Assembly: GCA_000171835.1 (NCBI GenBank)
Contig: ABHC01000001.1
Span: 186,001 to 250,000 of the forward strand
Direction: 5' to 3'
DNA: 64,000 nucleotides
From: an alpha proteobacterium BAL199
GTDB taxonomy: Bacteria; Pseudomonadota; Alphaproteobacteria; Thalassobaculales; Thalassobaculaceae
Shown here: piece by piece, positions 12,061 through 63,702 of the stretch
Layout of the letters: each line of letters begins with the position of its first letter
Position numbering within the stretch: the first letter of the stretch is position 1
Made by a program: the position numbers and the translations under genes
Notes under the pieces: generated by a model
Databases searched by the model: none
The model's input: the letters and a program-made list of their open reading frames with translations, nothing else
What the model was told of the DNA's origin: nothing

Positions 12061-12137
12061 TGGTCGGGGAGAGAGGATTCGAACCTCCGGCCCCTGCCTC
12101 CCGAAGACAGTGCTCTACCAGGCTGAGCTACTCCCCG
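12061..12137 (-). tRNA. tRNA-Pro (anticodon CGG)
   Basis: The 77-base minus-strand gene folds as a full cloverleaf: acceptor stem CGGGGAG/CTCCCCG, D arm GCTC...GAGC, anticodon stem CTGTC/GGCAG around the loop TTCGGGA (anticodon CGG, reading CCG), T arm with GGTTCGAAT and an encoded 3' CCA (complement TGG at 12061-12063). C1-G72 and G37 are normal for proline tRNAs. Confidence 0.97.
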
Positions 12138-59680: not shown

Positions 59681-60487
59681 TCAAGTTCCCGTGAAGTTCG
59701 GCTTGCGCTTCTCCATAAACGCGGTGCGGCCCTCGGTGTAGTCGGCGCTGCCGAAGCATTTCGAGACGGCCCGGTCGACGGCGGCAAGATCCCAGTCCTT
59801 CTGCGGCTTGGCCAGTTCGATCAGGCTGTGCTTGACCGCGGCGATCGACAGCGGGGCGTTGCCGGCGATCCGTTCGGCCATCGGCCAGACCGTGTCATCG
59901 AGTTCGGCCTTCGGCACCACCCGGTTGACCAAGCCCATGATCCGCGCCTCCTCGGCGTCGAACTGCCGGGCGGTGTAGAAGATCTCCGCCACGAACTGCG
60001 GCCCGACGATGTCGTACAGCCGGCGCACCCCGTCGAAGCCGTAGCCGATACCGAGCTTGGCGGCCGGCACGGCGAACCGGGAATCGTCCGAGGCGATCCG
60101 GATGTCGCAGTCGAGCGCAATCGCCAGGCCGCCGCCGATGCAGTAGCCGTCGATCCGCGCGATGGTCGGCTTCGCCAAGTTCTGGACGGTGTCGTGATAG
60201 GCTGAGACCGCGTCATTGTAGACCTCGATGTGCTCGACTGAGGCGCGCTCGTTCTCGAACTTCGAGATGTCGGCGCCAGCCACGAACGCCTTGTCGCCGG
60301 CCCCGGTGAACACCACGCAGCGTACGGCGTCGTCGTCGGCGAAGGTGGCGATTGCCTTGGCGGCGCCCAGCCACATGTCGAGCGACATGGCGTTGTGCCG
60401 GGCCGGGTTGTTGAAGGTGACGACGCCGACCCCGCCCCTGCGTTCAACGATGATCGGTTCGGCGGCGGCAAGTTCTTGAGTAGCCAT
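59681..60487 (-). CDS. Enoyl-CoA hydratase/isomerase family protein
   Basis: A 268-residue crotonase-fold protein: oxyanion-hole segments 'GAGDKAFVAGADISKFENER' in part and 'DGYCIGGGLAIALDCDIRIA' in part. One of the two usual catalytic Glu positions is Gly/Ala-rich here, so it could be an isomerase or hydrolase rather than a true hydratase. CCGGAGAGACC precedes the ATG at 60487; the frame is open upstream to 60715 but lacks a family match there. It may serve acyl-CoA made by the ligases nearby. Confidence 0.86.
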   Translation of the reverse strand: MATQELAAAEPIIVERRGGVGVVTFNNPARHNAMSLDMWLGAAKAIATFADDDAVRCVVFTGAGDKAFVAGADISKFENERASVEHIEVYNDAVSAYHDTVQNLAKPTIARIDGYCIGGGLAIALDCDIRIASDDSRFAVPAAKLGIGYGFDGVRRLYDIVGPQFVAEIFYTARQFDAEEARIMGLVNRVVPKAELDDTVWPMAERIAGNAPLSIAAVKHSLIELAKPQKDWDLAAVDRAVSKCFGSADYTEGRTAFMEKRKPNFTGT

Positions 60488-60718
60488 GGTCTCTCCGGTT
60501 GCTCCGATGCTGCGAACGAAGGCGCGGCGGAGCCGTGCAGGGTGTGTGGACGCGGTGCGGGCTGGATTGGCGGCCCGGTGGCGCGTGATCGGCGAAGGGA
60601 CCAGAACACTAAACCAGGGTCTTGCCAGCGCCAATCCCATGGGCGGGGTCGCTTGCGGCGGGGTGTCGCACCTGACAGAGGGACTCGAAACCAGAAGACC
60701 CACTTCCCATATCAATCA

Positions 60719-60834
60719 TAAGGCCAGTTCGGACCTACACCGGCTGGCCGAACGGGATCACTCCCGTTTGAGACTGGAAGCGGCGCCGACACTCCCTCCC
60801 CCCCCGCAGTGCGGTGCCGCTTCCTTTTCCTTTC
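60719..60834 (+). ncRNA. Candidate small RNA or ccm leader attenuator
   Basis: Three tandem hairpins on the plus strand: SL1 GGCCAG...CTGGCC (60722-60749), SL2 AACGGGA-TCAC-TCCCGTT (60751-60768, perfect), SL3 GGAAGCGGC...GCCGCTTCC (60776-60824). SL3 is followed by a T-rich tract and has a C-rich loop (CCCTCCCCCCCC) that resembles anti-Shine-Dalgarno loops of regulatory RNAs. No upstream plus-strand gene needs a terminator here. No known RNA family is recognised; the 5' end is a guess (possible CATATC -10 near 60708). Confidence 0.45.
60776..60834 (+). terminator. Rho-independent terminator upstream of ccmA
   Basis: GGAAGCGGCGCCGACACT pairs with AGTGCGGTGCCGCTTCC over 16 of 17 bases with small bulges; TTTTCCTTTC follows. 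It would stop transcripts about 55 bp before ccmA. It points the same way as ccmA, so it either ends a small RNA or attenuates the ccm operon. Confidence 0.7.
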
Positions 60835-60888
60835 CTCACAACATCAAGTGTCGTGGCCGGCTGGCCTGTTGAACGCTATAGAGGCGTC

Positions 60889-61542
60889 ATGACGGGGAAT
60901 GACCGGCTCGACGTGATGGACCTCGCCGCCCGACGCGGCGGCCGACCGGTATTCCACGGACTCTCGTTCACGCTCGCGCCTGGTGGTGCGCTGCGGCTCG
61001 CCGGGCGCAACGGCGGCGGCAAGACCACGCTGCTCCGAATCCTCGCGGGCCTCGGCCGCGCCGATCGGGGCGTGGTGCTCTGGAACGGCGATCCGATCGG
61101 CGACGACCGCGAGGCGCACGCTGCGCGGCTGGGTTGGCTCGGCCACGCCGACGCTCTCAAGCCGGCGCTGTCAGCCCGCGAGAATCTGGAAGCGGCCTTG
61201 CGCATCGCCGACCGGCCGCTTGCTGGGCTGAACAATGCCCTGGACGCTCTCGGTCTCAGCAATCTGGCAGATCTGCCGGCCGGCTGGCTGTCCTCCGGGC
61301 AACGCCGCCGGGTGGCGCTGGCGCGGGTGCTGGCCGGAGCCGCTCCGCTCTGGCTGCTCGACGAGCCGACCGTCGGCCTGGACATCGCATCCGTGGCCGC
61401 GCTGGAGCGAGCGATTGCTTCGCATCGGGCAGGCGGCGGAATGGTCGTCGCTGCCACCCACACCGCTCTCGACCTCGGCCCCGATACAGTCAGCCTGGAT
61501 CCGGCGGCGCATGCCGGGGCAATTCCGGAGCCGATCTCTTGA
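60889..61542 (+). CDS. ccmA: Haem exporter ATP-binding protein CcmA
   Basis: A 217-residue ABC ATPase: Walker A GRNGGGKTT (39-47), signature 'LSSGQRRRVALARVL' and Walker B 'LWLLDEPTVGLD'. With CcmB and CcmC it drives release of haem-loaded CcmE in cytochrome c maturation system I. The GTG-free ATG at 60889 follows GAGGCGTC. First gene of ccmABCDEF; the next gene begins inside its stop codon (TTGA). Confidence 0.95.
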   Translation: MTGNDRLDVMDLAARRGGRPVFHGLSFTLAPGGALRLAGRNGGGKTTLLRILAGLGRADRGVVLWNGDPIGDDREAHAARLGWLGHADALKPALSARENLEAALRIADRPLAGLNNALDALGLSNLADLPAGWLSSGQRRRVALARVLAGAAPLWLLDEPTVGLDIASVAALERAIASHRAGGGMVVAATHTALDLGPDTVSLDPAAHAGAIPEPIS

Positions 61543-62218: not shown

Positions 62219-62938
62219 ATGCATCGCTTCGCCAATCCCACCCGGTTCCTGCGGCTCGCCAACGCGCTGCTGCCGTGGCTCGCCGCCGCCGCGGTGCTGC
62301 TGCTCGGATCCGGGCTGTGGCTGGGGCTGTTGCGCTCGCCGGCCGACTACCAGCAGGGCGAGACGGTTCGGATCATGTACGTGCACGTGCCGGCTGCCTG
62401 GATGGCGATGGCCGGCTACACCACACTGGCGCTGTCCAGTCTGGCATTCCTGGTCTGGAAGCACCCGCTGGCCGACCTTGCCGCCCGTGCGGCATCGCCG
62501 ATCGGTGCCAGTTTCACCGCGATCGCGCTGGTCACCGGGGCGTTGTGGGGCCAGCCGATGTGGGGAACATGGTGGGTGTGGGACGCGCGGCTGACCTCGG
62601 TTCTGGTGCTGCTCTTCCTGTATCTCGGGCACATGGCGCTGACCAACGCGTTCGACGATCCGGAGCGTGGCGGCCGGGCCGGCGCGGTGCTGGCCCTGGT
62701 CGGTGTGGTCAACCTGCCGATCATCAAGTTCTCGGTCGACTGGTGGAACACGCTGCATCAGCCGGCCAGCGTGCTGCGTCTCGGTGGCTCGACCATCGAT
62801 CCCGCCATGATGAAGCCGCTGTTCTTGATGGCCGGCGGCTATCTCGCCGTGTTCGGCGTCGCGCTCATCCTGCGCATCCGGGCGCTTTATGCCGAGCGTC
62901 GGCTGCGCCAGCTTCGCCTGTCGCTCACCGATGCGTGA
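62219..62938 (+). CDS. ccmC: Haem-handling protein CcmC
   Basis: A 239-residue protein with six helices and the haem-binding WWD motif 'WGTWWVWDARLTSVLVL', flanked by conserved His residues ('MYVHVPAAWMAM' near 57). CcmC presents haem to CcmE. It lies 14 bp after ccmB. The sequence is intact. Confidence 0.96.
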   Translation: MHRFANPTRFLRLANALLPWLAAAAVLLLGSGLWLGLLRSPADYQQGETVRIMYVHVPAAWMAMAGYTTLALSSLAFLVWKHPLADLAARAASPIGASFTAIALVTGALWGQPMWGTWWVWDARLTSVLVLLFLYLGHMALTNAFDDPERGGRAGAVLALVGVVNLPIIKFSVDWWNTLHQPASVLRLGGSTIDPAMMKPLFLMAGGYLAVFGVALILRIRALYAERRLRQLRLSLTDA

Positions 62939-63034: not shown

Positions 63035-63229
63035 TTGTCGGAATTTTTCGCGATGGGTGGGTACGCAGGCTTCATCTGGCCATCGTACGCGGTTGCCTTC
63101 GGCGTCATGGCCGGGCTGCTGCTGTGGGCGTGGCGGACCGCACGGCAGGGTGAGGCCGAGGTTGAGCATCTGCGGGCCGTGGGGCTTGACCCGCGCCGCC
63201 GCCAGGACGCCGGGGTGGATGTGCCATGA
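63035..63229 (+). CDS. ccmD: Haem exporter small subunit CcmD
   Basis: A 64-residue single-helix protein. The CcmD signature '[18 protein letters not shown]' leads into a helix and a charged tail with '[14 protein letters not shown]'. The TTG start at 63035 is chosen because it follows GGGAGCGG and fits the usual length; the next ATG (Met7) would cut into the conserved start. CcmD helps release holo-CcmE. Confidence 0.88.
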
Positions 63230-63702
63230 GTCGACGCCCGCACCGGTCCCGCAAGAACCAGCGCCTCGCATTGATCGTCGGAGGCCTTGCGTTCCTGGGA
63301 ATTGCCGCCGCTCTGGTGCTTACCGCGTTCGAGGACAGCGTGGTGTTCTTCTTCAGTCCGACCGATCTGGCCGCCAAGCCGATTGATCCGGAGCGCCGGA
63401 TCCGGATCGGTGGCCTGGTCGAGGAAGGGTCGGTCGCGCGCGGTCCTGGCGACGGAGAGATCCGCTTCCTGGTGACCGATGGCACGACCACATTGCCGGT
63501 ACGCTTCGTCGGCGTGCTGCCCGATTTGTTCCGCGAGGGCCAGGGGGTGGTGGCCCAGGGACGGCTGGCCGGCGCCACCTTTGAGGCCGACGAGGTGCTG
63601 GCCAAGCACGACGAGACCTACATGCCGCCCGAGGTGGCGGATGCGCTGAAGAAACAAGGCCATTGGCAGCCCGAGTCGGCGGCGAAGGGGAAGGGCTCAT
63701 GA
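63226..63702 (+). CDS. ccmE: Cytochrome c maturation haem chaperone CcmE
   Basis: A 158-residue periplasmic haem chaperone anchored by one N-terminal helix (about 13-35). The covalent haem His128 and Tyr132 are in '[13 protein letters not shown]'. It overlaps ccmD by 4 bases (ATGA) and ccmF by 4 bases (ATGA). It takes haem from CcmC and passes it to CcmF. Confidence 0.96.

Follow-up and report, generated by a model that had tools for sequence, protein, structure and literature searches.

A candidate small RNA gene with a C-rich terminator loop directly before the cytochrome c maturation gene ccmA in Alphaproteobacteria

Among the described small RNAs (sRNAs) closest to the locus studied here, the alpha-r14 RNA NfeR1 of Sinorhizobium is reported to block ribosome-binding sites through C/U-rich loops that mimic the anti-Shine-Dalgarno (aSD) sequence (PMC10746234), the alpha-r8 RNA SisA is reported to work via a C-rich seed (PMC12559287), and the CcsR RNAs of Rhodobacter are reported to be under RpoHI/RpoHII (PMC10253847, PMC8307010). 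An RNA before ccmA is not described in the available portions of the literature covered, which was mostly open access. The available portions of a Magnetospirillum transcriptome paper (PMC9549626) likewise describe no RNA before ccmA, and those of the main text of an Azospirillum sRNA paper (PMC7685610) mention neither ccm nor the family names. The candidate RNA gene reported here has no description in the sources covered, and it lacks the three-loop motif of alpha-r14, the core of alpha-r8, and the Rfam score and gene neighbourhood that define CcsR.

The locus lies in a stretch of 64,000 nucleotides from alpha proteobacterium BAL199 (contig ABHC01000001.1, positions 186,001 to 250,000), the whole of which is called the window. 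Its features are as follows, in window coordinates.

59681-60487, minus strand: enoyl-CoA hydratase gene, the divergent neighbour (PF00378; bounded by the ORF end)
60654-60670, plus strand: TGCGGC-GGGGT-GTCGCA, a PrrA/RegA-like site (exact match to YSCGGC-N5-GWCRMA)
60684-60712, plus strand: putative promoter CTCGAAA-N15-CCCATAT of the RpoH (sigma-32) type (pattern in 16/16 family loci)
60722-60749, plus strand: hairpin 1 (H1; from the fold, pairing kept despite sequence change)
60750-60769, plus strand: hairpin 2 (H2; from the fold, compensatory change among relatives)
60776-60824, plus strand: hairpin 3 (H3), the terminator stem-loop and most conserved part (from the fold and a 16-sequence alignment)
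60792-60805, plus strand: C-rich loop of H3, CTCCCTCCCCCCCC, the proposed anti-Shine-Dalgarno seed (C-rich in 16/16 family sequences; enriched class-wide)
60825-60833, plus strand: T-tract TTTTCCTTT after H3 (from the sequence)
60877-60883, plus strand: TATAGAG, a probable separate -10 box of ccmA (found in 10/16 family genomes)
60889-61542, plus strand: ccmA, heme exporter ATPase and first gene of the ccm cluster (PF00005; TIGR01189 over its cut-off, 5.6e-60)
62219-62938, plus strand: ccmC, cytochrome c assembly protein (PF01578)
63226-63702, plus strand: ccmE (PF03100)

We folded positions 60719-60834 of the plus strand and obtained three hairpins in series with a minimum free energy (MFE) of -60.5 kcal/mol, which corresponded to a z-score of -6.75 against 200 dinucleotide shuffles (mean -36.3, sd 3.6), none of which was as stable. 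The antisense strand folded more weakly (z = -3.29), and the same three hairpins were recovered when the folded region was widened to 60690-60840. The original prediction of three successive hairpins, the last ending in a T-tract and bearing a C-rich loop, was thus borne out, while its description of two of them as perfect was slightly generous: the H2 stem pairs without interruption, a single base bulges from H1, and one of the 13 pairs in the lower stem of H3 is G-U. This G+C-rich lower stem and the U-rich tract that follows it give H3 the make-up of an intrinsic terminator, which a simple terminator scan overlooked because it allowed loops only up to 8. It had also been predicted that nothing upstream on the plus strand would need termination, and this holds for the window, since the neighbouring enoyl-CoA hydratase gene is on the minus strand and no known plus-strand gene upstream needs the terminator.

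The pairing is preserved through sequence change among relatives. In H1, GGCCAG/CTGGCC corresponds to GGTCAG/CTGACC in one relative (G001), and in H2 a compensatory change separates CGGCGG/CCGCCG (G006) from CGGTGG/CCACCG (G015). Over the 16 sequences aligned for H3, 95.7% of cells were paired and 10 cells had both partners changed; shuffles gave 4.1 (sd 1.6), and 0/500 reached 10. Double changes fell in 3/13 pairs of H3, against 2.6 in shuffles, and further pair types numbered 8 against 8.6, neither of which was an excess. A 6-sequence alignment, in which H1 was poorly aligned, gave double changes in 8/27 pairs with a covariation term of about zero; a further alignment (A3) contained antisense matches and was left out. 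Judging from these changes, the RNA pairing is under selection.

Homologues were sought by blastn (E < 1e-6), which found the RNA in 6/41 genomes with the window's own counted, and by R1, a covariance model made from those six sequences. R1 gave one match per genome in 16 of the 36 genomes of the window's family (an order-level search covered the same 36), so that ten of the positive genomes were newly found, the model having been built from the other six. Sixteen of the 20 other family genomes have a ccmA over the cut-off and in none of these 16 was the RNA found; it is therefore carried by 16/32 family genomes with ccmA. No locus among 80 named ccmA loci was positive with R1. All 16 family matches lie directly before ccmA on the same strand, and the enoyl-CoA hydratase gene is a near neighbour in 3 of these loci and lies about 1.4 kb off in 5; in the other 8 the locus showed none. 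The candidate RNA gene therefore adjoins ccmA strictly while the upstream genes vary. The comparison of the gap between the echA-like gene and ccmA in relatives, proposed with the original prediction, thus found the hairpins conserved in the 16 R1-positive genomes.

Some family genomes show other states of the locus. In G007 (locus L302), 400 nt ahead of ccmA, the RpoH-like promoter is preserved and H3 is broken with its C-rich arm lost, so that this copy is decayed, while the sister genome G023 of the same genus keeps the RNA. Two single-contig genomes of 1.5 Mb (G013, locus L317; G021, locus L316), which are grouped in a genus with 5 Mb genomes, keep ccmA in A+T-rich surroundings and do not have the RNA.

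Directly upstream of H1, all 16 family loci carry the pattern CTCGAMA-N14/15-MCYATMT (15 with N15 and one with N14), and these sites are its sole matches on both strands of 1.54 Mb of loci. In the window, this conserved promoter-like element would place the transcription start at about 60719-60720, and it differs by one -35 base from the RpoH1 promoter consensus reported for Sinorhizobium, CTTGAA-N15-16-CCTATAT (PMC4843759; a similar form is given in PMC4167512). The putative RNA promoter is thus close to published RpoH promoters and may be under RpoH control. Two checks, a genome pattern count and the groES promoters of relatives, left RpoH control unconfirmed: CTYGAM-N16-CCYATMT occurs only twice in the window's genome and is therefore no marker of a large regulon, and the family groES promoters, where found (4/22 groES-like genes searched), read CTTGAC-N16-CCTACAT with a -35 unlike that of the RNA. 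A sigma-70 reading of the promoter is also possible, as TCGAAA-N17-TATATT in genus g2.

Further upstream, the window matches exactly the motif published for PrrA, YSCGGC-N5-GWCRMA (PMC5506826; a related form is given in PMC5435760). This PrrA-like site, which was first spotted by eye and tested afterwards, is exact in 6/16 family genomes and present in a relaxed form in 9/16, always 29-30 nt before the -35 and including 9/10 genomes of genera g1, g4, g5 and g12; it is absent from 7/16. The relaxed form occurred three times in the 1.85 Mb made up by L068 and the later loci, a set that contains the window's own site a second time. Since the exact motif has fewer matches in the 6.1 Mb genome (80) than its reversal (114), the motif by itself means little and the evidence lies in its fixed position across genera. 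A RegA-type DNA-binding domain is encoded in 8/9 family genomes searched, including the window's, and RegA/PrrA may be the regulator of the site.

We then looked for related terminators across the class. A covariance model of H3 only, R2, run over 385 class genomes, gave 20 weak matches outside the family that resembled coding sequence or G+C-rich terminators of a generic kind, none with a CcmA match within its locus; the H3 model does not carry the wider class. Among the 80 named ccmA loci, R2 gave eight weak hits, three of them immediately before ccmA (L069, L071 and L077), and C-rich loops borne by unrelated stems were seen in several of the 25 upstream sequences read. Terminators whose loop contains CCCC or CCTCC, a pattern defined after seeing examples, were then scanned for directly; five lay upstream of ccmA (L069, L071, L072 from Azospirillum melinis, L077 and L080) and 38 elsewhere in these loci, against about 1.4 expected in the upstream stretch. 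The scan is of limited sensitivity, its earlier form having detected the terminator in 11/16 family loci.

An even class sample was drawn from 192 genomes, 141 of which have a ccmA over the cut-off. The sample of 130 loci did not include the nine genomes with the weakest ccmA matches, nor G000 and G003, whose loci were already covered; of the 130 loci 129 were analysed, one (L272 from G176) being dropped as its ccmA was not located by tblastn. On the plus strand upstream of ccmA, 28 C-rich-loop terminators were found in 25/129 loci, compared with none antisense, 15 in 647 kb of flanks, an expected number of about 1 to 3, and a mean of 3.3 (maximum 9) in 60 runs of dinucleotide shuffles of the upstream regions. 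C-rich loops were present in 25/59 terminator-like hairpins before ccmA, against 12/565 in the flanks and 0/37 antisense. The 25 positive loci span 20 GTDB families beyond the window's, with one locus (from G111) doubtful. By these counts, a C-rich terminator loop recurs before ccmA far beyond the family, on seemingly unrelated stems. The predicted likeness to anti-Shine-Dalgarno loops gains from this strong class-wide enrichment at a single site, and pairing with targets would follow by analogy. C-rich words beyond the loop (CCTCCCC, TCCCCCC) are also enriched immediately 5' of the terminator, and many of the 25 loci have further C-rich motifs on its 5' side.

Two further elements were observed in these searches. 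About 60-400 nt before the C-rich terminator of the 25 loci (L148-L277), AATCACA (7/25) and GCCACTTT (6/25) are enriched and form an element like AAATCACA-N4-YCGCCACTTT, possibly the promoter of the RNA or a regulator site outside the window's family. Separately, a hairpin with the C-rich loop CACTCCCCCCTCCCACC, preceded by TTGCGACA words, was seen at 1501-1558 of a locus outside the family and not near ccmA (L048 from G277), and could be a further RNA of the C-loop kind.

Between the terminator and ccmA, TATAGAG is found shortly before the ccmA start in 10/16 family genomes, namely all 10 of genera g1, g4, g5 and g12. Outside the family, a similar box stands at this place in 14/24 class members, against 4.9 in shuffles, by a pattern chosen after looking and with the doubtful positive (L252 from G111) left out. 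In the window the ccmA start codon comes five bases past the box, and the message may therefore be nearly leaderless; the other two genomes of the genus have the same arrangement (window 60877-60891). A conserved -10 box after the terminator speaks for two units in series, first the RNA and then ccm, and against an attenuator.

Considering these features, we judge that the locus is probably a free-standing sRNA gene with its own promoter, which ends at H3 and whose C-rich loop would silence mRNAs in trans, with ccmA expressed from a second promoter. In this model, the space that separates ccmA from the divergent gene holds an RNA gene about 110 nt long, which would be transcribed from its own RpoH-like promoter and whose transcript would terminate at H3; in most close relatives, a RegA/PrrA-like activator site precedes that promoter at a short distance. 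The C-rich loop would be the seed: like the alpha-r14 and alpha-r8 RNAs, it would pair with target mRNAs at their G-rich Shine-Dalgarno stretches and thereby silence them. The silencing would probably occur under heat, oxidative or redox stress, which the RpoH-like promoter and the RegA-like site suggest, and ccmA would be transcribed from a second promoter downstream of the H3 terminator. Several features speak against this model: the promoter departs from RpoH1 at one -35 base and from the family groES promoters, the PrrA-like site is missing from 7/16 family genomes, half of the family genomes with ccmA do not have the RNA, and the link to ccmA is stronger than action in trans alone needs.

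It is because of this strictness that a cis role on ccm, while unlikely, has to be weighed first. As a leader or attenuator, transcription from the promoter at 60684 would stop at H3 and sometimes read through, setting ccm expression. The strict place before ccmA in 16/16 family hits and 25/129 ccmA genes class-wide, with varied upstream genes, fits such a role, and so does the order of promoter, terminator and ccmA, which follow one another on one strand. The separate -10 box between terminator and ccmA (10/16 family genomes and 14/24 outside) does not, and the RNA has a single dominant fold, with no antiterminator in the MFE or centroid structure. An attenuator also has no need of a C-rich loop, yet the loop is conserved while the stems change. 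The conserved promoter of the RNA and the separate -10 box of ccmA make the free-standing sRNA gene the likelier of the two. The original prediction had offered an undescribed small RNA or an attenuator as its alternatives, and it is the first that agrees with the conserved hairpins, the RNA's own promoter, the terminator and the lack of an Rfam family, while the second is disfavoured by the -10 box and the missing antiterminator.

The loop could also act by binding protein, as a decoy for an RNA chaperone, a cold-shock protein or Rho, or could only stabilise or position termination. The loops are long C runs rather than exact CCUCC and their stems look unrelated between families, which would suit such a role; we nevertheless consider it improbable, given that few other terminators in the same loci have C-rich loops (12/565) and that related alphaproteobacterial RNAs with such motifs are reported to work by base pairing (PMC10746234, PMC12559287).

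Returning to the free-standing sRNA gene, we tentatively put forward a broader and somewhat doubtful extension, in which at least 21 families of Alphaproteobacteria would share one old sRNA gene before ccmA whose stems have turned over completely while the C-rich loops were kept. Under RpoH or redox control, it would make the translation of numerous mRNAs dependent on the state of cytochrome c assembly, and the nearly leaderless ccmA message would escape. The sequences of the class members would be compatible with one gene by descent and with repeated inventions alike. The results point to an sRNA class tied to a single gene, ccmA, in much of the Alphaproteobacteria, with Azospirillum as a named example. 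Sequence-based RNA family searches miss such a class because only the loops are conserved, and, given its fixed site, it can be located and tested in culturable strains. It offers a lead on a possible coupling between cytochrome c biogenesis and stress control at the post-transcriptional level, and the search illustrates RNA discovery through gene position and loop chemistry.

We also compared the RNA with known families. At gathering level, Rfam scans found one tRNA only in the whole window (12064-12137, minus strand) and nothing but tRNAs in 16, 16 and 20 related loci, which fits the prediction of an undescribed RNA. A permissive scan of 60300-61000 gave CcsR1 (RF02791) as its best match, with 18.1 bits and an E-value of 0.088 where the gathering cut-off is 65.3. 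Searched with the CcsR1 model, the window's genome gave nothing above chance and control genomes scored equally; TCCTCCC showed no excess over its reversal in the window's genome.

The candidate memberships were not supported. For CcsR1, the score is far below the cut-off and the neighbours are the enoyl-CoA hydratase gene and ccmA, not the DUF1127 gene ccaF1; alpha-r14 (cuckoo) requires CCUCCUCCC in three loops, while here only H3 is C-rich, with the loop CTCCCTCCCCCCCC instead; and for alpha-r8 (mmgR/SisA), UUUCCUCCCU is absent from 60719-60834 and no Rfam match of alpha-r8 type lies nearby. That the RNA is a diverged true member of CcsR or alpha-r14 is accordingly very improbable: the aSD-type loop, the identity of the best Rfam match and the RpoH-type promoter reported for CcsR (PMC10253847) would be explained by it, and the score, the single C-rich loop out of three and the want of an adjoining DUF1127 gene would not. 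Least probable of all is an ordinary terminator or insulator for neighbouring transcription, with no regulatory function, as the terminator stem and T-tract would fit it and a bidirectional role is conceivable, but in the window the neighbouring gene upstream is transcribed divergently, 11/25 class members have their best upstream ORF on the minus strand (14/25 being codirectional, with ORFs called roughly from G+C at codon positions), and the promoter is conserved, two more hairpins lie upstream and the loop chemistry is specific.

Compared with described systems, the RNA resembles AbcR1/2 in its three stem-loops, AbcR1/2 being reported to have unpaired CU-rich aSD motifs (PMC7143759); AbcR differs in reportedly having two such motifs, tandem genes beside lsrB and Hfq binding, and has no Rfam match in the window. 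With the alpha-r8 RNAs (mmgR, and SisA-D of Caulobacter) it would share a C-rich seed that binds mRNA 5' regions (PMC12559287), with the difference that the alpha-r8 seed is reported as single-stranded beside a weak hairpin, and here it would sit in a strong terminator loop. The resemblance to CcsR1-4 of Rhodobacter sphaeroides lies in a C/U-rich loop on a last stem of GCGGCG type; CcsR has an RpoH-type promoter (PMC10253847, PMC8307010), and the putative promoter in the window would be of this type, with one -35 change from the RpoH1 consensus. The CcsR RNAs, however, are reported to be cut from a transcript with ccaF1, and the available portions of the same sources show no link to ccm. Alpha-r14/NfeR1 is alike in its length of about 120 nt, three hairpins, a C/U-rich aSD-mimicking loop and variable stems with conserved loops (PMC10746234, PMC7143759). 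Whereas alpha-r14 carries its motif in all three loops and can be multicopy, the window RNA has a C-rich terminator loop only, with a longer C run, is single copy, stands always before ccmA and has a different promoter.
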